From NCBI RefSeq assembly GCF_002158905.1, contig NZ_CP021431.1:3173501-3237500 (forward strand): a stretch of DNA of 64,000 nt. The letters are read 5' to 3'. The stretch is from Yoonia vestfoldensis. GTDB lineage: Bacteria; Pseudomonadota; Alphaproteobacteria; Rhodobacterales; Rhodobacteraceae. Below are positions 11,954 to 32,094 of the stretch, piece by piece. Positions within the stretch are counted from its first letter, which is position 1; each line of letters begins with the position of its first letter. Made by a program: the position numbers and the translations under genes. The notes under the pieces are model-generated. The model searched no databases and was not told the origin of the DNA. It was given only the letters and a program-made list of their open reading frames with translations.

Positions 11954-11993
11954 CTGTTTTCTCCTTGTTGGGTCGTATGATCCGGTTTTCCGG

Positions 11994-15545: not shown

Positions 15546-15641
15546 TCAAGCCATAGGTGCGCGGCTGAATTCGTTATTTGCCTCGATCAGGCGACTCAGC
15601 AAATCGATGAAAACTGCTTGCTCTTCAGCGTTGAGATGCCG
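15546..15641 (-). pseudogene. 3' fragment of the MarR repressor gene
   Basis: These 31 codons (RHLNAEEQAVFIDLLSRL onwards, then a short tail ending RAPMA and a stop) match the C-terminal dimerisation helix typical of MarR proteins. They are cut off from the rest of the gene (17215-17649) by the IS110 element. Joining 17215 to 15641 is exactly in frame (435 + 96 bases = 177 codons including the stop). Confidence 0.82.
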
Positions 15642-15787
15642 TAACAGGGTTCGACCCAAATGGCATCGTTGTGAGTTGATCGACCGTTCGATGTGAGGTG
15701 TCGTTGCCCTTGGCACGCTGTGCGGCGTGTCGACGGGGTGGTGCTGTGATGCGCGCCCCAAGTTTTGAACAACGAAAGGACAACGAC

Positions 15788-16828
15788 ATGGAAACTTATA
15801 TCGGATTGGATGTCTCTCTCGCAAGCACTGCGATCTGCACGGTGAGCGCGCAGGGCAAGATCGTCAAGGAAACGACCGCAGTCAGTGAACCGGAGGACCT
15901 TGTTGCGACGCTAAAGGCAATTCCTGGGGCTGTTGTTGCAGTGGGCCTAGAAGCCGGTCCTCTCTCGCAATGGCTTTATCGGCATTTGACCGACGCAGGC
16001 TTTGCCACAGTGCTGATGGAGACGCGGCAGGTGAAGGGTGCGCTGAAAGCGATGCCCATCAAGACGGACCGTCGGGATGCAGAGGGGATTGCACGGCTGC
16101 TGCAGATGGGCTGGTACCGGCCTGTCCATTGCAAATCGATATCAGCTCAAGAGATGCGCGCCCTTCTGGCCACGCGCAAGACTGTCCAGCAGGCGGCGAT
16201 GAATCTCGAACTATCGATCCGTGGTGTGTTGCGAAACTTTGGACTGAAGATGGGACGTGTTGCAAAGGGTCGCTTTGAAGCGCGGGTGCAGGAACTGACC
16301 GAAGGTAATCCCATGCTGGAGGCTGCAGCTACCCCGATCCTTGCATCACGACGGATGCTGCGACAGGAACTGGCCAGTTTGGAGAAGCTCCTGCGCAACC
16401 ACGCCAAGGAAGACCCGGTCTGTCACTCGCTCATGACGATGCCTGGGGTTGGTCCCGTCGTGGCCCTGACCGTCAAGGCGTCTATTGATGACCCGGAGCG
16501 GTTCCGATCTTCCAAGGACATCGGTCCGTGGGTTGGGTTGACCCCGCGACGTGAGCAGTCAGGCGAGCGCGACATCATTGGCCAAGTGTCTCGGGCTGGC
16601 GATGTTGGGCTGCGCACGGCGCTGTACCAGGCAGCGACGGTCATGCTGCATCGCGGCCGCAAGAACTGGCTGACCGCATGGGCGCTGAATGTCGCCAAGC
16701 GGCGGGGCAAAAAGCGCGCCACTGTTGCGCTCGCGCGACGGATCGGGGTGGTTCTGCATCGTATGTGGAAGGACGGCACGGACTTCCGCTTCACCCGGGA
16801 AGAGGCCGCACACGTTGCTACTGCATAG
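15788..16828 (+). CDS. IS110-family DEDD recombinase
   Basis: This 346-residue protein has the RuvC-like N-terminal domain (YIGLDVSLAST, GLEAGPLS and the TDRRDAEGIARLL block supplying the acidic residues) and the C-terminal transposase_20 domain (MPGVGPVVALTVKA, with the nucleophilic-serine region further on). ATG at 15788 follows AAAGGACAACGAC; a longer frame from 15698 has no family similarity in its first 30 residues. It appears intact, so the element may still be mobile. Confidence 0.9.
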   Translation: METYIGLDVSLASTAICTVSAQGKIVKETTAVSEPEDLVATLKAIPGAVVAVGLEAGPLSQWLYRHLTDAGFATVLMETRQVKGALKAMPIKTDRRDAEGIARLLQMGWYRPVHCKSISAQEMRALLATRKTVQQAAMNLELSIRGVLRNFGLKMGRVAKGRFEARVQELTEGNPMLEAAATPILASRRMLRQELASLEKLLRNHAKEDPVCHSLMTMPGVGPVVALTVKASIDDPERFRSSKDIGPWVGLTPRREQSGERDIIGQVSRAGDVGLRTALYQAATVMLHRGRKNWLTAWALNVAKRRGKKRATVALARRIGVVLHRMWKDGTDFRFTREEAAHVATA

Positions 16829-17205
16829 GAGTAACTCTGCGATGCACGCCCAAAACAAGGTTGAAATATAGGAGGTTTGGCCGCGCCCGATGGCGCTGGT
16901 TCACCGATGTCCCAACCCGGGACGCGGTCCCCGATGATGCCGTGAGTGCGCTAGTCATCAGGCACGCTGTCTGAGGACGCTGTTGAGATAGGCACGCGGG
17001 AACCGCTCTTGGACTTGGCATGATGTGGCAGCCGCAGCGCTGACTACGGACAGAAGCACGATCCCGATGCGGGACAACACTCGGTCGCCAGCGTATCCAG
17101 CAACGCGTTTACCCATAACTCACAACACCGATGACGCAGCACGTGGTGGCCAACTTAACCGTTCGGCCATTGGCTTCGTGTCGAAAATTTCTCTTGACCT
17201 CGACC
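16829..17205 (+). ncRNA. Candidate bridge RNA region of the IS110 element
   Basis: The 3' end of the element has no plausible gene for nearly 380 bases. In the IS1111 group this segment is expected to encode the structured guide RNA that pairs with donor and target DNA. I see several short inverted repeats but cannot fold it. The 7-mers GATGCCG (16936-16942) and CAGAAGC (17051-17057) also occur directly left and right of the insertion point, but both have the same orientation, which does not fit the published strand rule, so they may be chance. Confidence 0.4.
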
Positions 17206-17211
17206 ACCCTG

Positions 17212-17649
17212 TTACAGAAGCGGACTCATCAGTTTGTCCTGCGCTGCCGCCATGGCGGGCTGCATTTTTTTAATAAGCATGCGCCCTGCCTGCGTGATCC
17301 GTACAACGTTTGCGCGCGCGTCGTCTTTCGACGGCTCTCGCGTCACCAGATCATTACGCACCAGTCTTTTAATGACATCTGCGCCACTGGTACGGTCGAT
17401 GCCTACAGCTTTGGACAAAGTTAGTTGATCTAGGCCGTCATTTTCCTGCAAGACCGACAAAATAGCAAATTGAACAGCCGTCACACCGTCGGCTCCGCAT
17501 GCTTCAGCAAACAAACCGACATGAATCTGGTGCAACCGGCGTATCAAATAACCCGGCCTGCTCCAAAGTTGTTTATAACGGCCAGCTAGTTGAGGCATGT
17601 GATCGCTTGATGTCATAACGTGACGATACTTGGGTTTGTATTGATTCAT
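17212..17649 (-). pseudogene. MarR-family repressor, truncated by IS110 (PicR-like)
   Basis: This is the 5' part of a MarR regulator, 145 codons from ATG 17649 (AGGAGG nine bases upstream). The winged helix is visible: VTAVQFAILSVLQEN, LDQLTLSKAVGIDRTSGADV and the wing EPSKDDARANVVRIT. The stop now used (17212-17214) is supplied by the end of the IS110 element; the missing last 31 residues lie at 15546-15641. MarR dimerises through its terminal helices, so loss of the last helix probably inactivates or weakens repression. It is divergent from the picA operon, the usual position of the picolinate repressor, and the intergenic region contains operator-like palindromes. Confidence 0.85.
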
Positions 17650-17689
17650 TAACAGTTGCCTCCTGTACAGCTTGTGGAGGTTACTAAAC

Positions 17690-17737
17690 CAATTACGAGT
17701 TGCTAACAAATTAATTGAGAAGTATGCTCCTTATAAT
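17690..17737. promoter_or_regulatory. marR-picA divergent promoter and operator
   Basis: The region contains an inverted repeat CAATTA/TAATTG (17690-17695 and 17712-17717), an operator-like GAAGTATGCTCC (17719-17730; 10 of 12 positions match the perfect palindrome upstream of picC) and a TATAAT -10 hexamer at 17732-17737 for picA. The operator lies just upstream of the -10, a geometry that suits repression. Confidence 0.55.
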
Positions 17738-17774: not shown

Positions 17775-20129
17775 ATGAAGACAGGTATTGGTGCAAAGGT
17801 TCCCCGCAAAGAAGACGCGCGCCACCTGAACGGGACTGCCCAATTCGTCGGTGATATTAAGATGTCGCACCTGTGGGAGGCCGCATATGTCCGCAGCCCC
17901 CTTGCCCATGCAAAGATAAAATCAATCACCAAACCAGAAGGGTTTGAGGACCGGGTGTTTTCGATGGCCGACATGGTCGGGCTTGGACCGATAGCGGCTC
18001 AATCAACGCTCCCCACATACAATCAGTCTAATCACTGGCCATTGGCCAAAGATAAGGTCAGGTTTGTAGGCGAATGTATTGTCATGTGCGTGGCGCCCAC
18101 GCGCGCCGAGGCAGAGGATCTAGCGGAGGCCGTCATTGTGGATCTGGAGCCTCTGCCAGTTCATGTCACGGTCGATACTGCCCTTGCCCCGAACGCCGAA
18201 AAGCTCCACGATGAATGGGAAAACAACCTGTTTCTGACAACGCAGTTCGACACCGACCTTACCGAAATCCGCAAAACCGCCGCCGTTGTCGTCGAGCGCG
18301 AGTATTCAACGGCACGGCAATGCATGGCTCCAATGGAGGGTAAAGGCGCGCTGGCCTATTGGGACGGCAAAGCAGATCAGCTTGTGATATACACCTCGAC
18401 ACAGGTACCTCATTTAATCCGCACAGGCTTGGCTGAATGTATGGGCCTTGATCAGGGCGAGGTACGAGTCATTGCACCCGATGTCGGCGGAGGCTTTGGT
18501 TACAAATGCGTCTTGCAGCCAGAAGAGCTGACAGTGGGGTGGGCTGCCAAACATCTTGGCCGGCCCATCCGCTGGACCGAAGACCGGCGCGAACATCTGA
18601 CTGCCGGTGCCAATACGCGCGAACACAAATACAAAATGACGGCTTATGCTGATGATACCGGTCGCCTTCTCGGCGTGGATGCCGATATCTGGGTCGATGT
18701 CGGCGCCTATTCCGTATGGCCGTTCACCGCCTGCCTCGAGGCTGCACAAGCAGGAGGCAACCTGCCCGGACCGTATGATCTGGGCGCTTATGCTTGCCGG
18801 ACCTATTCGGTCGCCACAAACAAGCCGGGATTCACGCCCTACCGCGGCGTAGCGCGCCCTGGCGTCTGTTTCGCGATGGAGCTGACGATTGACGCCATTG
18901 CGCGCGCGGTGGGTCGTGATCCGCTTGATGTGCGCCGCCTGAATCTGGTTCCCGGCAGCAAGATGCCTTACACGAACATCACCGGAAAATTCTATGACAC
19001 CGGTGATTATCCGGAAGCGGCGCGTCAGGCTGCCGAAATGATCGACGCAAAATCTTTTGCGAAACGCAAAGCAGAAGCGGCCAGCACGGGGCGGCATCTG
19101 GGGATCGGATTTTCGTCGTTCACAGAACAATCCGCACACGGCACAAAGGTATTCGCGTCCTGGGGGCTTGCGCTCGTGCCAGGCTACGAACAGGCGATGG
19201 TGAAACTGGCCCCGACCGGATCGGTCGAAGTCAAGTCAGGCAACCAAACAACAGGGCAAGGCCTCGAGACGACAATCGCGCAAGTGGCCAGTGACTGGCT
19301 GTCACTTGATATTTCCAGCATCAAGGTAACGATGGGCGATACGGGCATGACGCCCTATTCAACGGGCGCTTATGCGTCGCGCGGGATGGTGATGGCAGGT
19401 GGTGCTGTGTCAAAAGCATCCGAAGAGCTGGCCCGCCGTATTCGGGTACTGGGTGCCCATCTCCTGCAATGCAAAGCGGAAGAAACCGAACTGAAAGACG
19501 GTGCCGTCTTCAGAGGCGCAGCGTCGGTCAGCCTGAAACAGATCGCTCAGGCTTGGTATTTGCGGCCAGATCTGTTGCCCGACAATATCGAAACCACCGG
19601 AATGGAAGTCACCGAAGGATACAAGCCAACCATTGATACCGGTGTCTTTACGTATGCCACCCATGCCGCCGTCGTCGAAGTCGACATCGAAACCGGCAAG
19701 GTCGACATCCTCGATTATGTGATTTTCGAAGATTGCGGAACGCGGGTGAACCCGCTGATCCTTGATGGTCAATCTTATGGGGGTGCCGCGCAGGGGATCG
19801 GTACCGCACTTTTTGAAGAGGTGATTTATGACAGCGCGGGCCAGCCGCTGACCTCTACACTGGCGGACTATATCCTTCCGGGCCCTGCGGAATTGCCCAG
19901 TTTCCGCCTTGGTCATTCTGAATCGCCTTCGCCCTACTCGCGTCACGGGATCAAGGGCGTCGGCGAAGGAGCCGCAATCGCTCCCAGCGGGGCACTGGTG
20001 AACGCGATCAACGATGCGCTCACTCCGTTTGGGGCCGAGATTAACAGCATTCCAGCCACGCCGCACCGCATACTTCAGGCGATATTCGACGCCCGCGATG
20101 CCCGCGAAATGTTGGAGGCGGCAGAATGA
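17775..20129 (+). CDS. picA: Molybdenum hydroxylase large subunit (picolinate dehydrogenase-like)
   Basis: This 784-residue subunit binds molybdopterin cytosine dinucleotide in a xanthine dehydrogenase/CoxL-type hydroxylase. It would add OH from water to C6 of picolinate, giving 6-hydroxypicolinate, passing electrons to the FeS and FAD subunits. Visible motifs include QCMAPMEGKGALAYW, GGGFGYKC, YRGVARPG, QTTGQGLET, and the C-terminal GVGEGAA block with the catalytic Glu. The start ATG has GAGGAGG upstream. The three subunit genes overlap by four bases each. The substrate is inferred from the locus: 2,5-dihydroxypyridine enzymes plus a decarboxylase and a Rieske system. CO or nicotinate dehydrogenase are less likely alternatives. 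The symbol applies to the three-subunit enzyme. Confidence 0.8.
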   Translation: MKTGIGAKVPRKEDARHLNGTAQFVGDIKMSHLWEAAYVRSPLAHAKIKSITKPEGFEDRVFSMADMVGLGPIAAQSTLPTYNQSNHWPLAKDKVRFVGECIVMCVAPTRAEAEDLAEAVIVDLEPLPVHVTVDTALAPNAEKLHDEWENNLFLTTQFDTDLTEIRKTAAVVVEREYSTARQCMAPMEGKGALAYWDGKADQLVIYTSTQVPHLIRTGLAECMGLDQGEVRVIAPDVGGGFGYKCVLQPEELTVGWAAKHLGRPIRWTEDRREHLTAGANTREHKYKMTAYADDTGRLLGVDADIWVDVGAYSVWPFTACLEAAQAGGNLPGPYDLGAYACRTYSVATNKPGFTPYRGVARPGVCFAMELTIDAIARAVGRDPLDVRRLNLVPGSKMPYTNITGKFYDTGDYPEAARQAAEMIDAKSFAKRKAEAASTGRHLGIGFSSFTEQSAHGTKVFASWGLALVPGYEQAMVKLAPTGSVEVKSGNQTTGQGLETTIAQVASDWLSLDISSIKVTMGDTGMTPYSTGAYASRGMVMAGGAVSKASEELARRIRVLGAHLLQCKAEETELKDGAVFRGAASVSLKQIAQAWYLRPDLLPDNIETTGMEVTEGYKPTIDTGVFTYATHAAVVEVDIETGKVDILDYVIFEDCGTRVNPLILDGQSYGGAAQGIGTALFEEVIYDSAGQPLTSTLADYILPGPAELPSFRLGHSESPSPYSRHGIKGVGEGAAIAPSGALVNAINDALTPFGAEINSIPATPHRILQAIFDARDAREMLEAAE

Positions 20130-20950
20130 AACCAGTTCCTTTTTCACACAATATCGCTGACACACTACAGCTCGCCAGCAAGGCACTCAACACTGACGGC
20201 AGCAAGATTATCGCAGGCGGTCAATCCATTGGTCCTATGCTCAACCTGCGCCTAGTGCGCCCGACAACCCTGATTGGCGTCACCCGACTGGAAGAGCTGC
20301 AAAAAATTCATATAATAGGCGACACTCTGTCCATCGGTGCTGCCGTCACACATGCACGCATCGAAGACGGCATCGATGGTGTCGATCTTCCGCCCATGAT
20401 GCGCCATGTGGCCCGCAGCATCGCCTACCGCGCCGTCCGGAACAAAGGCACATTGGGCGGGTCACTTGCCCACGCGGATCCCGCGGCCGATTGGGTCACA
20501 ACAATGACAGCACTTGATGCGCAACTCGTGATCAGGGACGCGCGCGGAAAATCGCGGCGTGAACCGATGGCCAGTTTCATGCGCGGTGCCTATCGGACGG
20601 GATTGCAACAGGACGAATGTATCACCGCCGTGGAAATGCCCGTTGCCATGGGACAGGCCTTATGGGGGTACGATAAAATCTGCCGCAAGGTCGGAGAATT
20701 TGCAGATGCGATCGGTGCGATCGTGATACACCCAGATTTGAAATATGCCCGCGTCGTCGTTGGTGCGACAGAAGATGCACCGCTACTGCTGCCGGACATG
20801 GCCCGCGAAATTGCGCGCACCGCAACCGCTCCTTCACTGGGTGACATCGACAGCACGCTCGCGACATATCTGCCCGGCGCGTCACGCGTGAAAAGACAAC
20901 TGTTGAAAACCGCCCTGTCGCGCGCCATTGCAAAGGTTATACCATCATGA
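20126..20950 (+). CDS. picA: Molybdenum hydroxylase FAD subunit
   Basis: This 274-residue CoxM-type subunit carries the FAD-binding PCMH fold. Motifs include KIIAGGQSIGPMLNLRL near residues 32-48 and the RNKGTLGGSLAHADPAADW block near 105-125, both contacting FAD. It accepts electrons from the iron-sulfur subunit. ATGA overlaps join it to the large subunit upstream and the FeS subunit downstream, so subunits are made in equal amounts. Its role in picolinate oxidation is by association. Confidence 0.82.
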   Translation: MKPVPFSHNIADTLQLASKALNTDGSKIIAGGQSIGPMLNLRLVRPTTLIGVTRLEELQKIHIIGDTLSIGAAVTHARIEDGIDGVDLPPMMRHVARSIAYRAVRNKGTLGGSLAHADPAADWVTTMTALDAQLVIRDARGKSRREPMASFMRGAYRTGLQQDECITAVEMPVAMGQALWGYDKICRKVGEFADAIGAIVIHPDLKYARVVVGATEDAPLLLPDMAREIARTATAPSLGDIDSTLATYLPGASRVKRQLLKTALSRAIAKVIPS

Positions 20951-22122
20951 ATGCCACCGTTACGCCTTCTGTCGCCAAACAGCCAGTATCGTTGATAGTG
21001 AACAACATGCCCGAGACTGTTCACGTAACTCCGCGCACGACACTGGCGGAAATTCTGCGCGACCATCTGGATCTGACGGGAACACATCTGGGCTGTGAAC
21101 AGGGTGTATGTGGCGCCTGCACGGTCATGGTGGACGGACGTCCGGAACGCGCGTGCCTGACCTTTGCCGTATCTTGCGAAGGTGCCGCAGTCGAAACTGT
21201 CGAAGGATTCAAAGGCGACGATCTGATGGATCGACTACGGGCCGCGTTTCACCGCAATCACGCGCTACAATGCGGGTTTTGCACACCCGGCATGCTCGCA
21301 ACTGCGCGCGATCTGGTCGAACGGCTCGATACCGCCGACGAAGTGCGCATCCGCAACGAATTGTCAGGAAATTTGTGCCGTTGCACCGGATACGTCGGGA
21401 TTGTAAACTCCATCATGCAAGTGATCGAAGAAAGGCGCGCATGCGGCCTTCCGTGCACCGGTACGCCGCGCCTTGACCGCGCCCCACCGACAGGATTCGC
21501 GCCCTTTGATGCTGACATCTTCAAACAACCGTCAGCCCCCGCCGTGTCATCCGGGACGATGACTGTTGAAAACGGATGGTCTGTCGTCAAACGCGAGGTC
21601 GCGATCAACCATTCATCGGATACCGTCTGGGCGCATTTTTCAGATCTGGACGCGGTCGCGGCCTGTCTGCCGGGGGCGAAACTCGCCCAACATGACGACA
21701 GCACTTTTGAAGGTCATATCAGCGTCGCCTTTGGCCCCATTGCTGCAAAATTCGAAGGCGAGGGCACCTATAAAACCGACGATAGTACCCGCATCGGCAC
21801 CGTATCGGGGCGCGGCAAGGATCGCGGCGGCCAATCCGCAGTCGAAGGTGAACTAAGCTATACAGTCCGGCGCGCGCAAGGCAACCCGGATGCGTCCGTC
21901 GTGGATGTCGGGTTCCGGTTCCGTATTCAAGGCATTCTTGGCCAGTTTAACCGGCCCGAACTGGTCAACGGTTTTGTCGATTATATTCTGGGCGAGTTTG
22001 TCGCCAACTGCGACTCCGTCTTATCGGGGGGCGAATTGCGCTACAACAAAGGCATCAGCGCGTTTACCATGATCCGCGTCATTATCGCTGGCAAACTGCG
22101 GGCCTTGTTTCAGCGAAGCTGA
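20947..22122 (+). CDS. picA: Molybdenum hydroxylase FeS subunit fused to a CoxG domain
   Basis: The first 165 or so residues are a CoxS-type double [2Fe-2S] subunit: CEQGVCGACTVMVDGRP gives the plant-type cluster, and CGFCTPGM followed by CRCTGY gives the second cluster. After a linker the protein continues (about residues 205-391) as an SRPBCC/CoxG domain (VKREVAINHSSDTVWAHFSD, later FNRPELVNGFVDYILGEF). CoxG is normally a separate protein that helps anchor or mature CO-dehydrogenase-like hydroxylases. The fusion makes a 391-residue subunit, more than twice the usual FeS subunit length. It is the last gene of the operon and is followed by a strong hairpin. Confidence 0.84.
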   Translation: MNATVTPSVAKQPVSLIVNNMPETVHVTPRTTLAEILRDHLDLTGTHLGCEQGVCGACTVMVDGRPERACLTFAVSCEGAAVETVEGFKGDDLMDRLRAAFHRNHALQCGFCTPGMLATARDLVERLDTADEVRIRNELSGNLCRCTGYVGIVNSIMQVIEERRACGLPCTGTPRLDRAPPTGFAPFDADIFKQPSAPAVSSGTMTVENGWSVVKREVAINHSSDTVWAHFSDLDAVAACLPGAKLAQHDDSTFEGHISVAFGPIAAKFEGEGTYKTDDSTRIGTVSGRGKDRGGQSAVEGELSYTVRRAQGNPDASVVDVGFRFRIQGILGQFNRPELVNGFVDYILGEFVANCDSVLSGGELRYNKGISAFTMIRVIIAGKLRALFQRS

Positions 22123-22137
22123 CTGCCCAACGGTCCC

Positions 22138-22189
22138 TAACAAAAAAGTGGGCGCGAACGATAATACGTTCGCGCCCACTTTTTTGTTA
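22138..22189. terminator. Bidirectional terminator between convergent pic operons
   Basis: A perfect 23-base inverted repeat (22138-22160 and 22167-22189) with a 6-base ATAATA loop lies 15 bases after the picA FeS gene and 32 bases before the end of the oppositely oriented Rieske beta gene. The stem core is GTGGGCGCGAACG, flanked by A6/T6 so that either strand ends in a T-run. It should terminate both operons. Confidence 0.9.
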
Positions 22190-22221
22190 AAAACAGTCTT
22201 TTGTCAGACCGGACTGTTATG

Positions 22222-22779
22222 TCAGACTGGTAGGACGAGCGCATTATGGACAAGCAGCGTATCATAAATCGCGATGCGTGATTTCAACAAAAGGCTACCG
22301 TTGCCCTGTGTCTCAAAAATATCCTGCATCCGTCCGGCCATATGCAGACGCCCCTCGGGCAATTCAGCCAGCACCTCGATCAGGATAAAATTGGTTTCGG
22401 ACCTGATTGTCCCAGTGTCGTCTATGCCCAAGATACGGGTATTTGTCATAAAGTGGCGCAAATATCGCGGGCCGAACATGGAGGTCTTGGCGATCGCCAT
22501 CGCACGATCTTTCATCATGTTCTTGCCTTCGCAGTAGACAAGCCCCACAGGAAGCCCGTGATCGTAGTTTTCACGGCTGACGATATTGTAAAATCCGTCT
22601 TCCGTGAAAAACTCTGGCCAGTCTTCCAGATCACCGTCGTCAAGTACGGCACAATAGATCGCGTTAAACGCCTCGACTGCGTATCGGGCATCGCGCACGG
22701 CGGGGCTCGTGGCACGCTGCAACGCGCCTGTCACGTCTTTCAGTCCGACATCAAGTGACGGTTTTGTTTCGCGGCTCAT
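22222..22779 (-). CDS. picB: Rieske oxygenase small (beta) subunit
   Basis: This 185-residue protein has the cystatin/SnoaL-like fold of aromatic-ring-hydroxylating dioxygenase beta subunits (DARYAVEAFNAIYCAVLDDG, then EDWPEFFTEDGFYNIVSREN). It is structural and stabilises an alpha3beta3 hexamer. Its ATG overlaps the stop of the giant alpha/reductase gene by four bases. In the known picolinate pathway the second hydroxylation (6-hydroxypicolinate to 3,6-dihydroxypicolinate) uses the multi-component PicB; this protein is the small oxygenase part of that step by inference. Confidence 0.8.
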   Translation of the reverse strand: MSRETKPSLDVGLKDVTGALQRATSPAVRDARYAVEAFNAIYCAVLDDGDLEDWPEFFTEDGFYNIVSRENYDHGLPVGLVYCEGKNMMKDRAMAIAKTSMFGPRYLRHFMTNTRILGIDDTGTIRSETNFILIEVLAELPEGRLHMAGRMQDIFETQGNGSLLLKSRIAIYDTLLVHNALVLPV

Positions 22780-25580
22780 ACGCCCATCTCCTCGCGCCAG
22801 TGCTGATAAAGTGCGCGGATCGCAGCCTCTGATATCAGAGTTTCAGATGTGCCAGCGGGCACGTCGGGATCGAGCTGCACCATGTGATTTGCAGGTTTGG
22901 CTGAATTCAGCATTCCGTCCTGCACAAACTTTATCGCCTCGTTGTCTTCCAATCCAAGAAAACCCGCAGGGCCCATCAAATTGCCCTGACGCAATCGGTG
23001 GCGTATCATTTCTTCGTCATCGTCCTCGTACCCGAACATGGTCCAGATCATAGTAAATTCGTTTGGACCGTTGGGTACTAGCTGGCGCACGCCAAGCGTG
23101 TTCATCTCGCGTTGAACAATTAGATTCGGCCAGACAACCTGCATGGTGACAGACCACGGGCTGTCGAATTCTGGCACATAATCCATCAAACGCGGATCCG
23201 ATAACGTCATACCATCCCGATACGCACGCATCTCTTTCTTGTTTTCGTCCGAAACGCTCTTGTCGCTCTTGGCCGACGCCATGGTCGAATGGCGGCCTTT
23301 GGGGTCGCAGATCATGGCAGACTTGTTACCTGCCACCAAAAGCCCAAAGGTCACCAGAAACGTATGCAGCAATGTCGCGTGATACGGATCTTTCAGATTC
23401 TCCGGATACAATTTCCAGTTGCCCATAATAGTATGACGGTAATGACCGAACAGCTTTAGCTTACGACCCGAAAACACGGCGTCAAAGTCTGTCAGCATGG
23501 CCTCGCCCATGTAATCCTCGAAACTTTCCATGTTGTCGGCAAAAGACGCAAAAATCACACCGCCGCGCTTTGTAACATTCAACTTACGCAACCCGTGATC
23601 CGCCGCATTAAAATCGGCTGGCATTCCGCCCTCTCCGTTGGCACCACGGCGAAACGGAACACCCGCCAGATTGCCTTTCAGATCATAGCTCCATTCGTGG
23701 TAAGGGCAGACAAATTCGGTACTGTTACCACGCAGCTCACGGCAAAATTCAGCGGCACGATGCGAACAACGGTTTTCAAAAACATGGACTTCGCCATCTT
23801 CGTCCCGTGACACAACAACTGGGGTCGGCCCGACATATGACCGCACGAAATCACCTGTGTTCGGCACTTCACACTCGAGCGCCACATAGTTCCAAGTTGG
23901 CCCCTGGAAAATACGCTCGACTTCACGGTCATAGACATCCTGATTGGTATAGACCCAATCAGGCACGCGGGTCAGCCCTTCGGCTGGCCAGACAAACCGG
24001 CTCTCAAATGATTGTTGCTTCATGTCATCCTCCTCGTTGTCGCCCGCTTCGGACCCACCGGTCGCAAGCGGCTGTCCATTCGCCATCAAAGACCTTGCTG
24101 CACGCAACGCAGACGGATCACCGAAATCTATGACGCATTTGACCCTGCCAATTGCGTCCTGACCCAAAAAGACCGGCGCCTTGTCACCGTCGCGGCGCAC
24201 AACAGCCATGTCGGGGTCAGTCTGTCCGTAAATCTGGATCGTCGCACCGAACAGATCAGACCAGAACCACGGCGCATCTTCGGCAACGGGACTGTGTCTG
24301 GTGATATGCCGGGCAACGCGTTCTGCGCTTAACCGCGCATTCTGCCAGCTTTCCATACGTTGGAACGGTCCGCCGGGGCGCTCCTGACGGACAGCAACAT
24401 CACCCACAGCGTAAACGCCCGCAAGGTTTGTACGGTTGGCCACATCGACTAGTATCCCACCTTTGTCATGGGTTTTGATGTCAGCGTCCGACGCCAAATC
24501 GTCGTTGGGGATTGCCCCAATTCCGGCGATGATGACATCCGCATCAATCAAACGGCCGTCGCCCAATCCCACACCCTTGTCACTGACATTCGTGATGCGC
24601 GCACCCAGTTCAATAGAAACGCCGTGCTGCTTGGCAATTCCGGCCAGATAATCGGCGGGTGCCGCGGGCAAAAGACGGGTCATCAAGCGTGGTTGTGCTT
24701 CAATCACTGTCGCTTTCGCGCCCAACTTTCGCGCAGCAGAGGCCAGCTCGAGCCCGATGAAACCGCCGCCGATGACGGCAACGCTTTGCGCAGTTTTCAA
24801 CGCAGCGCCAAGATGTTCGGCGTCGTGCAAATCGCGCAAATAATGTATGCGCGTGTCATCAGACCCGCTAACGACAAGTTTACGAGGGCGCGCACCAGTA
24901 GCAAGGACCAGAATGTCATAGGAAATAGTTTCGCCATTCGACAAACGAACCGTTTTGTCGTTAGAATAGATGGCGGAAACACTTACACCCAGCATCATTT
25001 TCACCTGCAACTCCGCGGCCTGACCTGCCTGAAAGACATACGCATCTTCAATCGTCGTCACACCAGCCAGCAGTTCCTTTGACAGCGGCGGGCGTTCATA
25101 TGGCATATGTGCCTCAGACCCTATTAGAACGATACGACCACCAAAGCCGTGTTTACGCACCGCAATCACCGTCTCGGCACCCGCCTGCCCAGCCCCGATC
25201 ACGACAAGCGTGCGATCATCCGATCCAATGACATGCGCGGTCGTGACCGCTTCATCTAGTTGTTGCGCGGGCGTGTTGATATCCACCCATACAAATCCAT
25301 CTTCTTGTTTAACTGCATAGGTTGCGATGTCCTTGGAAACCGGCGCGCTAAGTGCTTTGCCGGACCGGATGTCGAACAGGCCTTGGTGCAAGGGACATTC
25401 GATGCAGCCACCTTCAACGTGGCCATCTGTTAGATAGGCAAAAGCATGCGTACAGATATTGCCTGTTGCATAAACTTCGCCGTCAACAGCCCATAACGCG
25501 ATTCGTAGCCCGTCAACCTCTGTGGCGATCGCACCCTGCTCCAAAACCTGCCTAGTCTCAAGCGTCTTGAACCAGTCCAT
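22776..25580 (-). CDS. picB: Fused Rieske ferredoxin, FAD reductase and oxygenase alpha subunit
   Basis: This 934-residue ORF covers three functions. Residues 1-105 are a Rieske ferredoxin (C43, H45, C62, H65). Residues about 120-510 are a pyridine-nucleotide-disulfide-type ferredoxin reductase (FAD motif VVIGAGQAGAE, NAD motif VAVIGGGFIGLE, and VYAVGDVA). Residues 520-934 are a Rieske oxygenase alpha subunit (C605, H607, C625, H628; iron site D731, H734, H739 in NLKDPYHATLLH). The joint at Met520 is preceded in frame by GAGGAGG and GATGAC, a complete ribosome site, so a separate 415-residue alpha subunit may also be made by internal initiation. In known systems these are separate polypeptides. 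Role: 3-hydroxylation of 6-hydroxypicolinate, inferred from context. Confidence 0.82.
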   Translation of the reverse strand: MDWFKTLETRQVLEQGAIATEVDGLRIALWAVDGEVYATGNICTHAFAYLTDGHVEGGCIECPLHQGLFDIRSGKALSAPVSKDIATYAVKQEDGFVWVDINTPAQQLDEAVTTAHVIGSDDRTLVVIGAGQAGAETVIAVRKHGFGGRIVLIGSEAHMPYERPPLSKELLAGVTTIEDAYVFQAGQAAELQVKMMLGVSVSAIYSNDKTVRLSNGETISYDILVLATGARPRKLVVSGSDDTRIHYLRDLHDAEHLGAALKTAQSVAVIGGGFIGLELASAARKLGAKATVIEAQPRLMTRLLPAAPADYLAGIAKQHGVSIELGARITNVSDKGVGLGDGRLIDADVIIAGIGAIPNDDLASDADIKTHDKGGILVDVANRTNLAGVYAVGDVAVRQERPGGPFQRMESWQNARLSAERVARHITRHSPVAEDAPWFWSDLFGATIQIYGQTDPDMAVVRRDGDKAPVFLGQDAIGRVKCVIDFGDPSALRAARSLMANGQPLATGGSEAGDNEEDDMKQQSFESRFVWPAEGLTRVPDWVYTNQDVYDREVERIFQGPTWNYVALECEVPNTGDFVRSYVGPTPVVVSRDEDGEVHVFENRCSHRAAEFCRELRGNSTEFVCPYHEWSYDLKGNLAGVPFRRGANGEGGMPADFNAADHGLRKLNVTKRGGVIFASFADNMESFEDYMGEAMLTDFDAVFSGRKLKLFGHYRHTIMGNWKLYPENLKDPYHATLLHTFLVTFGLLVAGNKSAMICDPKGRHSTMASAKSDKSVSDENKKEMRAYRDGMTLSDPRLMDYVPEFDSPWSVTMQVVWPNLIVQREMNTLGVRQLVPNGPNEFTMIWTMFGYEDDDEEMIRHRLRQGNLMGPAGFLGLEDNEAIKFVQDGMLNSAKPANHMVQLDPDVPAGTSETLISEAAIRALYQHWREEMGV
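24021..24036 (-). promoter_or_regulatory. Internal ribosome site and ATG inside the fused picB ORF
   Basis: On the minus strand, GAGGAGG is followed after five bases by the in-frame ATG at 24023 that begins the oxygenase alpha domain. No stop codon separates the two domains; TGA is present in another frame at the same place. This looks like a former gene boundary that became a read-through fusion, or a dual-start gene. Confidence 0.55.
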
Positions 25581-25581
25581 A

Positions 25582-26562
25582 TTACACCCCGTTCATTTCG
25601 GCCAAAGTCGGCATACCAAAAAGGCGTGCTGCATTATCATGGCAAATTTTTCTGCGTGTTGCCTCTTCGATCGGCGCGGTTTCTATGAAATCCACCGCAA
25701 GACCGGTGTCCTCATATGGATAATCCACAGAGAACATGACCGCATCCGCGCCCATTTCGCCAATCGCGCCAAGGATTGACGGATGTGAACAAACGCCCGA
25801 TGTGGTGATCAATATATTGGAGCCGAAATATGCCGATGGCGCACGGTCAAGCGATACACCCATCGGATAGGCGCCAAAGCGGCTATCATACCGCCAACGC
25901 AAAAACGGCAGCGCTTCACCCATATGGCCAAGGACAAGTTTAACGTCCGGAAAGCGGTCAAAAACTCCTCCGAAGAGTATACGCAAAGCGTGCGAGCCTG
26001 TCTCAACGCCCCACCCCCATGTTGCGCCCTGTAGCACTGGCATACCGCCAAGAACATGCGGCGTGACGTAAGCATTTGATGGGTGAAGGTAGAATGGCAC
26101 GCCAAGTCTTTCAACCTCGGCCCAAAACGGGTCGTAGTCTGTCCCTTCGTAATAGGTGCCATGCGTGTGACTATTAACAAGGCACCCTTGCAATCCAAGT
26201 TCGTTCACAGCGCGGTTAAGTTCTTTTGCAGCAGCCTCGGGATCGTGCATCGGCAAGGTCGCAAGCCCACCCAAACGATCAGGTCGTTTTGAGATTTTTT
26301 CAGCAATAAAGTCATTGGCACCCATCGCCGCATTGACTGCATTTTCTATGGCTTCACCCTGTGTTCCGGGCCCCGTCAGCGACATAATCGAACGAGTAAT
26401 TCCACCGCGATCCATCAATTCGATACGTTCACCATCAAAATCGCCAAGACGGCGCATCAGGATTTCAGCCTGATCCTGCGGAATCAATTTCAGAAAAGCC
26501 TCTGAATGCTTCTCAAATCCCGGCGCCATAAAATGCTCTTCAAACGTTATCTTGGGTGTCAT
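25582..26562 (-). CDS. picC: Amidohydrolase-family decarboxylase (3,6-dihydroxypicolinate decarboxylase-like)
   Basis: This 326-residue amidohydrolase_2 protein resembles gamma-resorcylate/dihydroxybenzoate decarboxylases, which remove CO2 without oxygen at a metal site. Conserved residues: Glu8 in ITFEEHF, His160 in FYLHPSNAY, His213 in LGHMGEALPF and Asp280 in FSVDYPYED. In picolinate catabolism PicC of this family converts 3,6-dihydroxypicolinate to 2,5-dihydroxypyridine. The gene is one base upstream of the fused picB gene and first in its operon; its promoter region contains the best operator palindrome. Other substrates (hydroxybenzoates) are possible, but the neighbours favour the pyridine route. 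Confidence 0.82.
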   Translation of the reverse strand: MTPKITFEEHFMAPGFEKHSEAFLKLIPQDQAEILMRRLGDFDGERIELMDRGGITRSIMSLTGPGTQGEAIENAVNAAMGANDFIAEKISKRPDRLGGLATLPMHDPEAAAKELNRAVNELGLQGCLVNSHTHGTYYEGTDYDPFWAEVERLGVPFYLHPSNAYVTPHVLGGMPVLQGATWGWGVETGSHALRILFGGVFDRFPDVKLVLGHMGEALPFLRWRYDSRFGAYPMGVSLDRAPSAYFGSNILITTSGVCSHPSILGAIGEMGADAVMFSVDYPYEDTGLAVDFIETAPIEEATRRKICHDNAARLFGMPTLAEMNGV

Positions 26563-26581
26563 GGGAATCTCCTGTTAAAGA

Positions 26582-26610
26582 CTATATGAAGTATACTTCC
26601 TTTATAAGTC
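26582..26610 (-). promoter_or_regulatory. picC promoter with perfect operator palindrome
   Basis: GAAGTATACTTC (26588-26599) is a perfect 12-base palindrome located 26 bases upstream of the picC ATG. On the minus strand it is followed at once by TATAGT (26587-26582), a plausible -10. The same core occurs upstream of picA and, more weakly, of livH. Confidence 0.6.
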
Positions 26611-26680
26611 GAAGCAACTGCACCGTGTTCTAATCAAAGGTCGCATACCGGTCATTTTCTAAATACTGGCGCCCTACGGA

Positions 26681-27301
26681 TCAAAGCCCGTTAAGATAGG
26701 ACAGCACGTCAGCTGATTGGATAACGTCTCCGTATTTCTGATCGATGTCATACAATGCAGCTTCATGTGGCGGTGCGGCACGGTCTGCACAAGCATCTGC
26801 CACGACAAGGACATTGAACCCGCTTTGAACAGCATCCACAGCCGACGCCCGGACACATCCCGAAGTCGTCGCACCTGTTAGGATCGTGGTATCAATACCG
26901 ACGCCCGCCAAATGCGCTGCTAGGTTGGTGCCAAAAAACGCCGAAGCCCCTTTTTTGACCACCACCGCATCATCAGGCAACCGGTGTAACCGCGCGTCAA
27001 TCTCGACAAGGTGGCTACCTTCGACCAGCGCTTTCATGCCCTGCGCTTTCCGAAGCCAAGCAAGGGTATCCACCTCGGCAGTGTTGAATGCAATAACGGA
27101 GAAAATCACCGGAACCGACTTTTCGCGCGCAACCGCAATCAGGCTGTTTGTGACGACAATCTGCGCGTCGGCATCAGACGCCGTGGGATAGCGCGGATCG
27201 GTAAAACCATAGCTGAAATCAATAACGACCAACGCTGGCTTAGAACCACGTTGAACACGCACCCCGAAACCTGCGTCTTCATAAACTTTTTTCTGGCTCA
27301 T
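26681..27301 (-). CDS. picF: Maleamate amidohydrolase
   Basis: This 206-residue isochorismatase-fold protein is close to NicF/PicF, which hydrolyse maleamate to maleate and ammonia. The catalytic triad is visible: Asp28 in VVIDFSYGFTD, Lys117 in VVVKKGASAFFG and Cys149 in ATTSGCVRASAV. It is the last gene of the picG-E-D-F set on the minus strand, 16 bases downstream of the dioxygenase gene. N-carbamoylsarcosine amidase is the main family alternative and is excluded by context. Confidence 0.85.
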   Translation of the reverse strand: MSQKKVYEDAGFGVRVQRGSKPALVVIDFSYGFTDPRYPTASDADAQIVVTNSLIAVAREKSVPVIFSVIAFNTAEVDTLAWLRKAQGMKALVEGSHLVEIDARLHRLPDDAVVVKKGASAFFGTNLAAHLAGVGIDTTILTGATTSGCVRASAVDAVQSGFNVLVVADACADRAAPPHEAALYDIDQKYGDVIQSADVLSYLNGL

Positions 27302-27317
27302 GTTACCCTGCCCGACC

Positions 27318-28349
27318 CTAGCACCGCTCCATCTGCATTTCCTTCACCACAAGATCACCGTCAATTACGATCGGCTCGTCATCAAGAAACAGAGAACAAT
27401 TGCGCATCGGAATGTCGAGGTGACATGCCGTGTCGTTAGACCCGCCCAACTCATTATTCGGACCGGTCGAAAACATCACGTTGCCGTAGAAACTGCGCGG
27501 CTCCATTCCCATGCCACCGGGAAATTCACCTGGCGTCATGCGATGCCATTTCGCATCGGGGTTCATGCCCCATCCTACATGGCTCATGCCCTTGCCGCGC
27601 TCGTCGTTAAACCCGTCCATGTAAGATTGTACAAGCTGGCAATCCAGCCCACCCCTCATGTCAGTGATGAACCCTTTTTCGATGGTATAGGTGATCGGGT
27701 CGCGGACATACATGTTTTGCGGCAACAACACATCACCCGGTGCGACAACAATCTGGCCGTCAACACCGTCATCATCTCCGCCCGTAAACACAAAACCCGA
27801 AGGCCAGTGATCCCAACGGCCCGCCTCGTCGGTACAGGCGTATTCCGCAACAGTCGGATAGGTATTCAGCTTGTAGGTCACATCAGTGCCATGCGGCGAT
27901 GTAATGCGCATCACCTTGGCTTTCGTCAGATATTCAGCACCGATTTCGACCTTCTCGCGCAGTTCCTTGGATGGCAACATCCGCGCCAGAAGCTCGGGCG
28001 GCTCAACCGCCGTAAGTATCCGCGTGCCTGCGTCCTGAATGGCGAACTGTTCCGGCGAAAACAGAAGGAACACGCAATCAATCAACATATCACATGCCTT
28101 TAGCGCGTCCACCGCGTCAGGCATGGCGGCAAGGCCGGTTACGCCGACATTCCAGCCGCCGATCGCAGATGGCGCCGGAAGGCGCATATGATACATCGAC
28201 GCCCCAAGTTGTGCGCCCGCAGCCATAAACGCATTGGCATAATCCAGCCGTTCGTTGCCCTGGGTCAGCACAATAAGTTTTTCGCCTTCATGTACGCCAG
28301 ACATCTTCAACTGATGCAGGCAAATCTGTGTAAAACTCTCTTGATCCAT
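27318..28349 (-). CDS. picD: 2,5-dihydroxypyridine 5,6-dioxygenase
   Basis: This 343-residue protein belongs to the M29-like family of extradiol-type dioxygenases (NicX/PicD/Hpo) that open 2,5-dihydroxypyridine to N-formylmaleamate with Fe(II). The metal-site blocks are seen near the C-terminus: GKGMSHVGWGMNPDAKWH and the NDTACHLDIPM block (His-x-Asp). The length matches NicX (about 350 residues). It lies 17 bases from the alpha/beta-hydrolase gene that uses its product. This enzyme is the diagnostic step of the locus. Confidence 0.9.
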   Translation of the reverse strand: MDQESFTQICLHQLKMSGVHEGEKLIVLTQGNERLDYANAFMAAGAQLGASMYHMRLPAPSAIGGWNVGVTGLAAMPDAVDALKACDMLIDCVFLLFSPEQFAIQDAGTRILTAVEPPELLARMLPSKELREKVEIGAEYLTKAKVMRITSPHGTDVTYKLNTYPTVAEYACTDEAGRWDHWPSGFVFTGGDDDGVDGQIVVAPGDVLLPQNMYVRDPITYTIEKGFITDMRGGLDCQLVQSYMDGFNDERGKGMSHVGWGMNPDAKWHRMTPGEFPGGMGMEPRSFYGNVMFSTGPNNELGGSNDTACHLDIPMRNCSLFLDDEPIVIDGDLVVKEMQMERC

Positions 28350-28366
28350 ATCGAAAATCCTCTTTT

Positions 28367-29155
28367 CTACGCGTCTTCGCTGAAATTCATAACGGCGTCC
28401 AAAAATCCCTCAAGGTTGTCCCAAGGGATCATATGGCCCGCGTCTTGCACAACTTTCACCTCGATGTGCGGGGCAAGGCTTTGTATTTCGGTAATGTCGT
28501 CTTCGCCAATCACCGGCGCATTACCAGCTTTCAGCAGACGCATCGGCAATTTGATATGCGGCAGGTCGGCATGAATATCGTCGGTGTGAAAACCGTCATA
28601 CGCTGTCTTGATTGCATCAAGCTGGCAGGTGTGAAGCCATTCCGCCCGCAACCCGACCTGATCATTAGTCCACGTCGGACAGAAAGCCCGCATTTCTTCG
28701 GCAGAACAGCCTTTAGTCGCGGCAATAATCGAATCTTCATACCACTGCCATTTAGCAGGATATGCGCGCCTACTAGGTCCGCTGACCGGAGGATCTACAA
28801 GGATTAGACCTGACATCGCGTCGCTATTCTTGCGCGCAGCACGAATTGCATTTCGTGCCCCCATTGAGTGCCCAAGGATGACCGGCCTGTCCATATCGCC
28901 AGCATCAATAACGCCAAGCGCATCCTCTGCCATTGCATCAAGTGAATAATTAAGATCACCAGCCTGACTTAGACCACGACCCCGCACGTCAAGCACATGA
29001 ACATCAAACTTTTCGGCCAGCCGCTCTGCGACAAAACCCCATGTAATCGCAGGCGATGTAATTCCGGGAATAAGCAGCATCTGGGGGCCTTCACCTGCAT
29101 AATGCAACAGGTGTTGGCGGATACCGTTTGCGTGAAGATTATATCCACGTGCCAT
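28367..29155 (-). CDS. picE: N-formylmaleamate deformylase
   Basis: This 262-residue alpha/beta-hydrolase is similar in size and position to NicD/PicE, which releases formate from N-formylmaleamate to give maleamate. Nucleophile Ser97 lies in ILGHSMGARNA; the catalytic His is in QDAGHMIPWDN near residue 241. The gaps to its neighbours are 11 and 17 bases. General carboxylesterase activity would be the fallback assignment without the neighbours. Confidence 0.86.
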   Translation of the reverse strand: MARGYNLHANGIRQHLLHYAGEGPQMLLIPGITSPAITWGFVAERLAEKFDVHVLDVRGRGLSQAGDLNYSLDAMAEDALGVIDAGDMDRPVILGHSMGARNAIRAARKNSDAMSGLILVDPPVSGPSRRAYPAKWQWYEDSIIAATKGCSAEEMRAFCPTWTNDQVGLRAEWLHTCQLDAIKTAYDGFHTDDIHADLPHIKLPMRLLKAGNAPVIGEDDITEIQSLAPHIEVKVVQDAGHMIPWDNLEGFLDAVMNFSEDA

Positions 29156-29166
29156 GTTACGATCCT

Positions 29167-29916
29167 TTAATATTTGCCCGAAAGCAGCGCGCCACCACCG
29201 GGTACCAACGTATCCAGATCAAGCGCCTTCAGCATCGCCCATGTCGTCGCAATCGCCGCCGTTACAACGGGCTTACCGGTCGCCGCTTCAGCCTCGGGAA
29301 CCGCACGCAGCGATGGCATTTGCACGCAAGCCGACAACACAACGGCATCAACATCACTAGTGTCCATGCCAGCAACAATACCTGGCAGGTTCATCGGATC
29401 ATGCGCGGCAACTGCAAGATTGTCCTGAATTTCCAGCGCCTTCCACGTTGTGACTTCGATGCCTTCAGCGCGGATGTATTCAACAACCATTTCGGTCAGC
29501 GGCTTCATATAGGGTGCGACTACAGCGACCTTTTTGGCCCCCATTGCGTGCAGCCCATCGACGAGTGCGCCCGCAGACGTGATGACAGGCGCCTCGGCCG
29601 CATTGTCCTTTGTTACCTGACCCAGACGCTCTGCAGATTTACGGTGATATCCGTGGCCCATCGACATGATTGCAACCAGACAGGCGTAACCCAATACATC
29701 GACGCGCGCGTCGCTCAGTTCGAGCGCACAACGGTCACTGTCACCGTCCATAGCCTTCAATTCTTCTTCTGTGACTTTTTTCATACGCATACGACTGGAA
29801 TGGAATGTGAATGTTTCGGGGTGGACCTGTCCACGCGCACGCAAAAGCGCCGGAATTTCTGTTTCCATCGTTACGTTGGAACTAGGGACAATCTGTCCTA
29901 CGCGATAACTTCTCAT
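29167..29916 (-). CDS. picG: Maleate cis-trans isomerase
   Basis: This protein of about 249 residues belongs to the Asp/Glu racemase superfamily and converts maleate to fumarate. The two catalytic Cys are present in LGYACLVAIMSMGHG (near 79) and VVLSACVQMPSL (near 197). ATG at 29916 is favoured because GGAG is seven bases upstream; ATG at 29922 is directly adjacent to it. It is the first catabolic gene after the TetR gene. Fumarate enters the TCA cycle. Confidence 0.88.
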   Translation of the reverse strand: MRSYRVGQIVPSSNVTMETEIPALLRARGQVHPETFTFHSSRMRMKKVTEEELKAMDGDSDRCALELSDARVDVLGYACLVAIMSMGHGYHRKSAERLGQVTKDNAAEAPVITSAGALVDGLHAMGAKKVAVVAPYMKPLTEMVVEYIRAEGIEVTTWKALEIQDNLAVAAHDPMNLPGIVAGMDTSDVDAVVLSACVQMPSLRAVPEAEAATGKPVVTAAIATTWAMLKALDLDTLVPGGGALLSGKY

Positions 29917-29937
29917 GATCATTCTCCAATATGGACG

Positions 29938-30010: not shown

Positions 30011-30712
30011 TCAAAGCAATGGGGTGTTCTCAGGCGCGGTCATTCCCGCGCTCAGGAAAATCACAAGATTATCGAGTACTTCGGTCTTGTCCACTTTACC
30101 AAGCTGGTTGTCCGTCAGGTCATTCAGCCGGTCCACGTCATTCAGCATGAACAAATATGCACCAATCAAAAACGCCATACGCAATCCAACGGTAGGTTTG
30201 GAAAGCTCAGGAAGGGCGTCAGAAATGGCACTGATGTAACGTTTGGCAGATTGGTCGTAAACCTCGCGGCGCAATCGCAACGCATGCTCTTCCGGTTCAG
30301 CATGTAAACGGGCTTGCAGCTTGACAAATGCCGCGCCGGACTCGCTGCTATATTTCATATCCCATTGGGGCGTAAGGTAGGCACGCACAAGCTCTTCGAC
30401 CGATGGAGCGGCCGGCTGTGCAAGCAATGCGTCAAGCAGCTCTTCACGGCGCCGCCCGATATGTTTTCCACGACGCAGAAACACCTGATCAAAAAGATGT
30501 TGCTTGGATTGAAAATAATAGTTAATCAAGGCCTGATTGACATTTGACTTGCTTGCGATGTCACGCATACGGCTTCCGTTATAGCCGTGTTCAGAGAAAA
30601 CCTGTTCCGCACTATCCAGAATGGCGACCCGTAGATCTTTATCACCCGCAGGGCGTCCCGGACGCCGCTGCTTTGATTTCGGTTTGCTGGAATCAATATT
30701 TCTGGTCATCAT
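30011..30712 (-). CDS. TetR family regulator
   Basis: This 233-residue protein has a basic N-terminal tail (KPKSKQRRPGRPAG), a TetR helix-turn-helix (LDSAEQVFSEHGYNGSRMRD, then IASKSNVNQALINYYFQSK) and a C-terminal TetR_C-like ligand domain. It is upstream of picG on the same strand and probably controls the picGEDF genes, in addition to the MarR repressor near picA. Two regulators of different families in one locus may respond to different pathway intermediates. Confidence 0.83.
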   Translation of the reverse strand: MMTRNIDSSKPKSKQRRPGRPAGDKDLRVAILDSAEQVFSEHGYNGSRMRDIASKSNVNQALINYYFQSKQHLFDQVFLRRGKHIGRRREELLDALLAQPAAPSVEELVRAYLTPQWDMKYSSESGAAFVKLQARLHAEPEEHALRLRREVYDQSAKRYISAISDALPELSKPTVGLRMAFLIGAYLFMLNDVDRLNDLTDNQLGKVDKTEVLDNLVIFLSAGMTAPENTPLL

Positions 30713-30793: not shown

Positions 30794-31114
30794 CTAATCG
30801 GCCAGCTCACGTAACGATGAGGGAGGGTAGATCATGTGGTTTTCATATTCTTCGGTTTCGGTTTGGGCAAGGGCGCCGGGAACGGAGTCCCCAAATTGCT
30901 CAAGCGCCTGGCGCGCTTCTGCGGGTGTTTTGTTGCCGAGCGACGAGTGCGGCCTGACGTAGTTATAGTCGTATCGCCATAGGGCCAGCTTGCCCCTTCG
31001 ATCGTCCAGACTGCCAAACAACTCCTCGATCAGGAGTTCATCGCGCAGGCTGCCATTGAAGCTTTCGATGAAGGCGTTGGGGCTTGCCCGGGTCGATGTA
31101 GTGCTAGTCGACAT
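30794..31114 (-). pseudogene. IS3-family orfB C-terminal fragment
   Basis: The frame contains NAFIESFNGSLRDELLIEEL and then YVRPHSSLGNKTPAEARQAL, the C-terminal end of an IS3-family DDE integrase (final Glu region). The N-terminal two thirds are missing. It sits directly beyond the pic locus. Confidence 0.75.
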
Positions 31115-31692: not shown

Positions 31693-32094
31693 GACCCTCT
31701 GGGCGCGAGCTATGCGGGCGCGCCGCAGCATCCATGTTCCGCTCTGTTCTGGCACGAGCAGGGCCGCACTCGCCGTTACACACCGGAAATTGTCACCTGG
31801 CTGCTTGTTGACGTCATTCGGCGCGCCGGGTTGAAGCCTCTGCAAGGGCGCACCGGGCCACGCGTTCATGATCTGCGCCACTCGATGGTCGTGAACCGTA
31901 TTCTGCAGTGGTACCAAACGGGCATCAATCCACACGATAGACTGCCGTTCCTCGCGACTTACCTCGGGCATCGGGATATCAACTCCACCCTGGTCTACAT
32001 CACCGTCACGCAGGATCTGCTGCATCTCGCCAACGAGCGGTTCAGGGCCGTGGGCGCACCATGCCTCAATCTTGGGTGGGAGGTGAGGTCATGA
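31693..32094 (+). pseudogene. Tyrosine recombinase, 3' fragment (recombinase-in-trio B-like)
   Basis: An open frame without a start reads LFWHEQGRTRRYTPEIV and then HDLRHSMVVNRILQWYQTG, LATYLGHRDINSTLVYITVT, the His-x2-Arg, His and Tyr boxes of a tyrosine recombinase catalytic domain. The N-terminal part is lost at the IS3 junction. Its stop overlaps the ATG of the next recombinase (ATGA), as in recombinase-in-trio (RIT) elements. Confidence 0.7.

Follow-up and report, generated by a model that had tools for sequence, protein, structure and literature searches.

A putative picolinate locus of Yoonia vestfoldensis with a single-chain PicB and a conserved candidate internal start codon

Rieske oxygenases are wanted catalysts, and their need for a separate reductase and ferredoxin hampers their use. 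A 64,000-nt stretch of the Yoonia vestfoldensis genome (assembly GCF_002158905.1, contig NZ_CP021431.1, positions 3,173,501 to 3,237,500 of the forward strand), here termed the window, contains what is very probably a pic cluster for the aerobic use of picolinate. In it the ferredoxin, the reductase and the oxygenase alpha subunit of the Rieske oxygenase PicB form a single open frame, and an ATG with a ribosome-binding site stands inside that frame where the alpha part begins. The locus thus raises the question of whether it encodes a Rieske oxygenase that carries its own electron-transfer chain, and whether the same gene also yields a free alpha subunit. The pic pathway itself is already known, and this is a new host for it; what appears to be new is the fused PicB and its conserved candidate internal start. 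Excerpts of a 2025 review (PMC12445004) state that no natural self-sufficient Rieske oxygenase has yet been identified, and that engineered Rieske fusions still show attenuated activity and coupling. A literature search found no title or abstract on a fused PicB or on a natural ferredoxin-reductase-Rieske oxygenase; most subscription papers lay outside that search, and absence from print is unproven.

The PicB fusion and the ATG at its alpha border

The picB fusion gene (22776 to 25580, minus strand) encodes a protein of 934 aa and 102.3 kDa. A Rieske ferredoxin occupies residues 1 to about 105, a flavin adenine dinucleotide (FAD)/nicotinamide adenine dinucleotide (NAD) reductase residues from about 122 to 507, and the Rieske oxygenase alpha domain residues from about 520 to 934. 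Rieske non-haem iron oxygenases display a CxH..CxxH motif plus a 2-His iron motif with a bridging Asp, and both are present in the alpha domain (C605/H607/C625/H628 and D731/H734/H739), as are the ferredoxin ligands C43/H45/C62/H65. All 45 fusions in an alignment retain these cofactor ligands; the alignment starts at residue 2 and hence has numbers one lower than those of the chain. By sequence, all redox carriers are on the oxygenase polypeptide, and the beta subunit (PicB small, 185 aa, an open frame with the expected domain at 22222 to 22779, minus strand) is separate, its gene overlapping the end of the fusion gene by 4 bases. The full-length fusion starts one base behind the picC stop codon and has its own ribosome site, with a free energy of pairing (dG) of -9.6. 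In an AlphaFold2 model, also numbered from residue 2, the reductase is well predicted (75 to 96 by ten-residue block), the ferredoxin is uneven (55 to 93), and two tethers, at 107-116 and 506-522, have a predicted local distance difference test (pLDDT) score under 50. Other genomes have this frame too, which rules out a sequencing error as the source of the fusion.

In a search of 5.8 billion proteins, which returned only proteins of 0.55 to 1.75 times the query length, 524 homologues of the fusion pass an E value of 1e-50. The 120 that were listed, the window's own included, are 928 to 972 aa long; 113 of them have all three domains in the same order at a coverage of at least 85%, and the other seven have all three at lower coverage.

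The alpha domain opens at M520 (24021 to 24023), which lies 5 bases behind a perfect Shine-Dalgarno sequence, AGGAGG, the two together occupying 24021 to 24035 on the minus strand. A start at M520 is predicted to give a free alpha subunit of 415 aa and 47.2 kDa. As no stop codon separates the reductase from the alpha domain, a free alpha is possible and a free reductase is impossible without cleavage.

A start codon with a ribosome site is kept at this domain border in other fused genes. In 21 fused loci, the predicted pairing of the 16S ribosomal RNA tail with the sequence ahead of the alpha-border start has a median dG of -9.1. The median is -3.4 for the 479 remaining in-frame ATGs within these genes, and 70 gene starts placed by script have -7.8. 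This test took the best candidate start, which inflates its result. In a stricter test the span of the ATG was fixed in advance, within 22 codons of the alpha domain, and 11 lineage representatives less than 80% identical were used, because the 21 loci hold near-duplicates (L014/L124 and L015/L123). An ATG is found in 10 of the 11, and the median dG of the Shine-Dalgarno pairing is -9.4, with six of the ten sites at -9.1 or stronger. The corresponding median for 1639 other internal ATGs is -3.0 (p 1e-6). It is -4.6 where at least two of the five preceding residues are acidic (206 ATGs, p 2.6e-5 to 3.5e-5) and -5.6 where at least three are (41 ATGs, p 0.0015 to 0.0026); the p values are approximate since the 1639 background ATGs come from all 21 loci. 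In a span of the same size before the reductase, an ATG is found in two of the 11 only, with dG of -5.8 (L004) and 0.0 (L013).

The methionine is also seen in the wider set of listed homologues. Of 118 proteins (two of the 120 were left out, the anchor motif being missing), 100 have it among the 22 residues that precede the alpha anchor, compared with 38.5% of random spans. Both borders could be placed in 76 of the 120 proteins, the remaining 44 being excluded; in these a methionine precedes the alpha domain in 66 and the reductase in 23. An earlier control with a stricter motif, from which 62 of the 120 were excluded, gave 53 of 58 and 23 of 58, respectively.

PicB would represent a natural electron-self-sufficient Rieske oxygenase, in which electrons would pass on one chain from NADH to the FAD reductase, the Rieske ferredoxin, the Rieske centre and the mononuclear iron. 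The fused chain, joined by two flexible tethers, would pair with the separate beta subunit. More likely than not, the gene gives a free 47-kDa alpha in addition to the 102-kDa fusion, the former made from the same mRNA by way of the internal ribosome site. PicB oligomers might then combine beta with alpha chains of both lengths, so that only some alpha chains carry the reductase-ferredoxin arm; such a mixed oligomer would keep the path from NADH through FAD, ferredoxin and Rieske centre to iron tethered and avoid an arm on every alpha. There is about an even chance that the full proposal holds, i.e., that a self-sufficient alphaproteobacterial PicB is accompanied by free alpha from a conserved site, a single gene fixing how many electron-supply arms the alpha/beta oligomer has per active site. 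A conserved natural fusion offers a direct template for Rieske oxygenase engineering; the internal start hints at one reason for the possible shortcomings of simple fusions, namely that the oligomer may need some arm-free alpha chains.

Occurrence and descent of the fusion

Paracoccus seriniphilus carries the same fused frame. Its pic cluster is on a plasmid, and there a MarR gene and a branched-chain-type ATP-binding cassette (ABC) transporter, of the same kind as in the window, are syntenic with the pic genes; a Variovorax plasmid pic cluster likewise has a branched-chain-type ABC transporter. The whole gene set, including the PicB fusion, recurs in loci L002, L003, L004, L118 and L119, and the co-occurrence is therefore no chance.

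Loci with pic genes, or serving as outgroups, number 87, of which 73 have an alpha: 14 fused and 59 separate, two outgroups included. The other 14 have none at a coverage of at least 85%, 11 showing no match and three a partial one. A tree was built from the 73 alpha rows and 28 further fusions (two of 30 homologues picked were dropped for incomplete domain coverage), giving 101 rows of which 99 are different, some of them near-copies, the window and L003 among these. All 42 fused rows group in a clade of their own (support 98/90), as do the 57 separate pic rows (99/93), with the two outgroup rows on long branches. All 57 separate rows are beta- and gammaproteobacteria by name, and the named fused rows are alphaproteobacterial with the exception of L017 and three doubtful labels (L005, L014 and P0082). 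L017, from a Saccharospirillum metagenome-assembled genome (MAG) and thus a gammaproteobacterium by name, falls in the fused clade, as does P0082, named Microbacteriaceae bacterium K1510. The labels Enemella evansiae (L005) and Mesoflavibacter sp. (L014) both look wrong and were not counted as spread beyond the alphaproteobacteria; the site context of L014 is shared by a genome placed in an alphaproteobacterial family.

The fusion is an accessory trait. It is present in four of 198 genomes of the family sample and in two of 390 of the order sample, the window's own included in each, and in none of the 20 same-genus genomes listed from the order sample. A plasmid search with a Xanthobacter fusion gave 28 records, and 80% coverage is reached only in the Paracoccus one already known. 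A phage collection gave eight records, all Acinetobacter phage by name, and none covers 80% of the query.

Two apparent fusions in other bacteria were rejected. A 915-aa "open frame" had suggested a reductase-alpha fusion in Alcaligenes faecalis, and a stop codon lies between the two frames; Caballeronia SBC2 had appeared as a betaproteobacterial fusion from a single BLAST piece, and its alpha is in its own frame. In L010 (Mangrovicoccus ximenensis) the PicB frame stops inside the reductase part, and the 21-kb locus showed no alpha. Relatives of the window proteins include P0012 (PicB fusion, 85%) and P0122 (PicC, 90%), the latter from a MAG named Planktomarina sp. Given this PicC relative, further marine roseobacters may carry the pathway; the window itself would place a complete pic pathway in marine roseobacters.

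Two products or a relic

Several observations weigh against the proposal of a self-sufficient PicB with a second product. The homologue search favours fusions by design because of its size limits, and in a class sample of 385 genomes the ten that match comprise six with the full fusion, the window's included, and four with alpha only. The AlphaFold2 alpha domain is uneven (33 to 94) and the predicted template modelling score (pTM) of the fusion model is 0.48; therefore the mutual arrangement of the domains is left unsettled by the model. The substrate and turnover, in turn, are assigned by prediction. As to the internal start, four of the ten sites (L002, L004, L007 and L008) reach just -5.9 to -6.3, no better than the ATG before the reductase in L004; the L112 site is weak (-3.1); and L014/L124 have no ATG at the alpha border, the sole candidate being a GTG farther upstream that has a strong site. 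When single genes are shuffled synonymously, most give non-significant results (p 0.0015 to 0.98 over the 21 loci), and part of the signal is therefore accounted for by the acidic linker alone.

These modest, weak or missing sites and the shuffles are what would be expected if the fusion is real and self-sufficient and the internal start is a relic of a separate alpha gene, or a by-product of the acidic linker, with no important free alpha. The gene arrangement in A. faecalis AU14 fits as well: there the reductase and alpha share a reading frame and are divided by one stop codon only, and loss of that stop would therefore fuse both and leave the ribosome-binding site behind. However, the linker residues vary (EEDDM, ESEEM, KESSM, RRKLM) and AGGA or AGGAG still persists, the sites as a set exceed the ATGs matched for acidic residues, and an ATG before the reductase is retained in so few of the representatives. 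A start without an important product is thus possible but somewhat doubtful, and translation into both the fusion and a free alpha is the reading adopted here.

Pathway, locus and known systems

The first-pass annotation of this DNA had described a complete picolinate degradation locus at 17775 to 29916, comprising a three-subunit molybdenum hydroxylase, a Rieske oxygenase system, a decarboxylase and four lower-pathway enzymes. All of these are found as long open frames with the expected Pfam or NCBIfam domains, PicD excepted, or with solved relatives, and the genes for PicA (three subunits), PicB, PicC, PicD, PicE, PicF and PicG occur together at 17775 to 29922. The description needs amending in three respects: the Rieske system consists of two genes only, with ferredoxin, reductase and alpha in one frame; the small molybdenum hydroxylase subunit has a CoxG domain fused to it; and the locus extends beyond the enzyme genes to a MarR gene and an ABC transporter. 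The word "complete" fits the enzymes, but in this strain picR is truncated and one permease is frameshifted.

The PicA genes are on the plus strand: the large molybdopterin subunit (17775 to 20129), the medium FAD subunit (20126 to 20950) and the small [2Fe-2S] subunit with a fused CoxG domain (20947 to 22122), assigned by their domains and by comparison with A. faecalis AU14. The remaining enzyme genes are on the minus strand, in the order picG, picE, picD, picF, picC, PicB fusion and PicB beta downward from 29922. PicA would convert picolinate to 6-hydroxypicolinate, PicB would add a 3-hydroxyl to the latter, and decarboxylation by PicC would give 2,5-dihydroxypyridine. PicD, PicE, PicF and PicG would then lead through N-formylmaleamate, maleamate and maleate to fumarate.

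In protein searches PicC (25582 to 26562), with an Amidohydro_2 domain and assigned as a 3,6-dihydroxypicolinate decarboxylase, is 63-64% identical to the A. faecalis protein P0153 (458 bits), and its best match among solved decarboxylases, gamma-resorcylate decarboxylase, reaches 241 bits only. In Bordetella PicC a change of H163 or H216 abolished activity, both being essential according to the portion of the report consulted (PMC10142695). H160 and H213 of the window PicC match these by position (the RB50 protein itself is outside the alignment), and every one of the 15 aligned rows has them. Adjacent genes of A. faecalis AU14 encode its best matches to the PicA large subunit (52%) and to PicB alpha (66-67%).

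The lower-pathway enzymes all match solved proteins. PicE, the N-formylmaleamate deformylase (28367 to 29155), matches deformylase 4l0c (E 1.1e-117); PicF, the maleamate amidohydrolase (26681 to 27301), matches the isochorismatase-family hydrolase 4l07 (E 1.6e-75); and PicG, the maleate cis-trans isomerase (29167 to 29922), matches maleate isomerase 4fq7 (E 9.9e-123). Each of these three also displays its expected domain. PicD, the 2,5-dihydroxypyridine 5,6-dioxygenase (27318 to 28349), has no Pfam or NCBIfam match at 1e-5, and its assignment rests on the solved 2,5-dihydroxypyridine dioxygenase 7cn3 (E 6e-91); it retains the SHxGWG and HLDIP stretches, which presumably hold the iron ligands.

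The substrate is taken as picolinate, as had been proposed, and the relatives of PicA, PicB and PicC in A. faecalis and the solved matches of PicD to PicG are consistent with this. Another pyridine carboxylate, e.g., a substituted picolinate, could be degraded by the same chemistry, since by general knowledge substrates can shift among molybdenum hydroxylases and Rieske oxygenases; moreover, four pic-like loci have a molybdenum hydroxylase just 34% identical to that of the window, and the nearest NCBIfam model of the alpha, anthranilate dioxygenase AndAc, is far from its cut-off (420.4 bits for the whole fusion vs 750). Such a substrate is unlikely, given that A. faecalis, the species in which the pathway has been studied, has close relatives of PicA, PicB and PicC, with PicA next to PicB, and that the essential histidines are kept in PicC. 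The four loci (L036, L037, L039 and L056) are Pigmentiphaga-type pic loci, and their 34% hydroxylase is a possible replacement of PicA. A pathway of the nicotinate or 3-hydroxypyridine type would have only its lower part in common with the window, as the steps of PicD to PicG are shared with those known as nic, hpo and hpd. The presence of a Rieske system and a PicC-type decarboxylase in conserved synteny makes it highly improbable, as does the failure to find a nicC-like gene in the locus. The noted absence of a NicC-type monooxygenase thus stands for the locus, for which alone the question is settled; a genome-wide profile search gave 17 FAD_binding_3 matches, all outside the window.

The locus reaches on past picA to picR, a MarR regulator gene (17212 to 17709, minus strand), and to a five-gene branched-chain-type ABC transporter at about 10742 to 15240. 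The transporter genes, all on the minus strand, encode permease 1 (14377 to 15240), permease 2 (13470 to 14380), ATPase 1 (12688 to 13491), ATPase 2 (11994 to 12710) and a substrate-binding protein (10742 to 12082, provisional start). An IS110-family insertion (15636 to 17218; transposase 15698 to 16828, plus strand) separates picR from these genes and, with its junction at 17218/17219, costs picR roughly 28 residues at its C-terminus. The element is missing from Loktanella sp. PT4BL, with which the window shares 99.95% identity over 17.1 kb. The permease 2 gene contains a frameshift near 13685 (open frame 13628 to 14380), either a real mutation or an assembly error; in PT4BL its frame is open. 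PicR is a repressor in A. faecalis, according to the title of a cited paper, and with picR truncated here, constitutive expression of the pic genes in this strain is possible. On the other flank of the cluster there are a TetR gene (30011 to 30712), a short integrase-core transposase frame (30794 to 31114), a tyrosine recombinase (32061 to 33095) and a second IS110-type gene (33232 to 33951).

The pic clusters of A. faecalis JQ135 and Bordetella bronchiseptica RB50, as far as the source consulted describes them (PMC10142695), have the same enzyme class at every step, a MarR regulator and the PicC histidines, and in A. faecalis AU14 the PicA small subunit is joined to CoxG as in the window. They differ in gene order and in PicB, which consists there of four genes, picB1B2B3B4, and here of one fused gene plus beta. 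The fused PicB is treated as a variant, four genes not being a stated requirement of a pic cluster in the part of that source seen. Salicylate 5-hydroxylase and AndA (PDB 7c8z; NF041684) share the alpha family and motifs, the beta subunit and the kinds of ferredoxin and FAD reductase; their components, however, are separate, in the order alpha-beta-ferredoxin-reductase in the two examples examined, and the window protein is under the AndA cut-offs. Single-chain P450s such as LumU, in the excerpt available (PMC12746152), also carry oxygenase, ferredoxin and reductase on one chain, but they are haem enzymes with an unrelated oxygenase, whereas PicB has its beta subunit on a chain of its own and probably yields a second product. 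For that product the nearest likeness is Cas11b, which by the portion of its report consulted (PMC11899642) arises by in-frame internal translation of cas8b. There too a part of a gene is made again from an internal start as an extra subunit, although the proteins are unrelated and the second product of the window is a predicted one.

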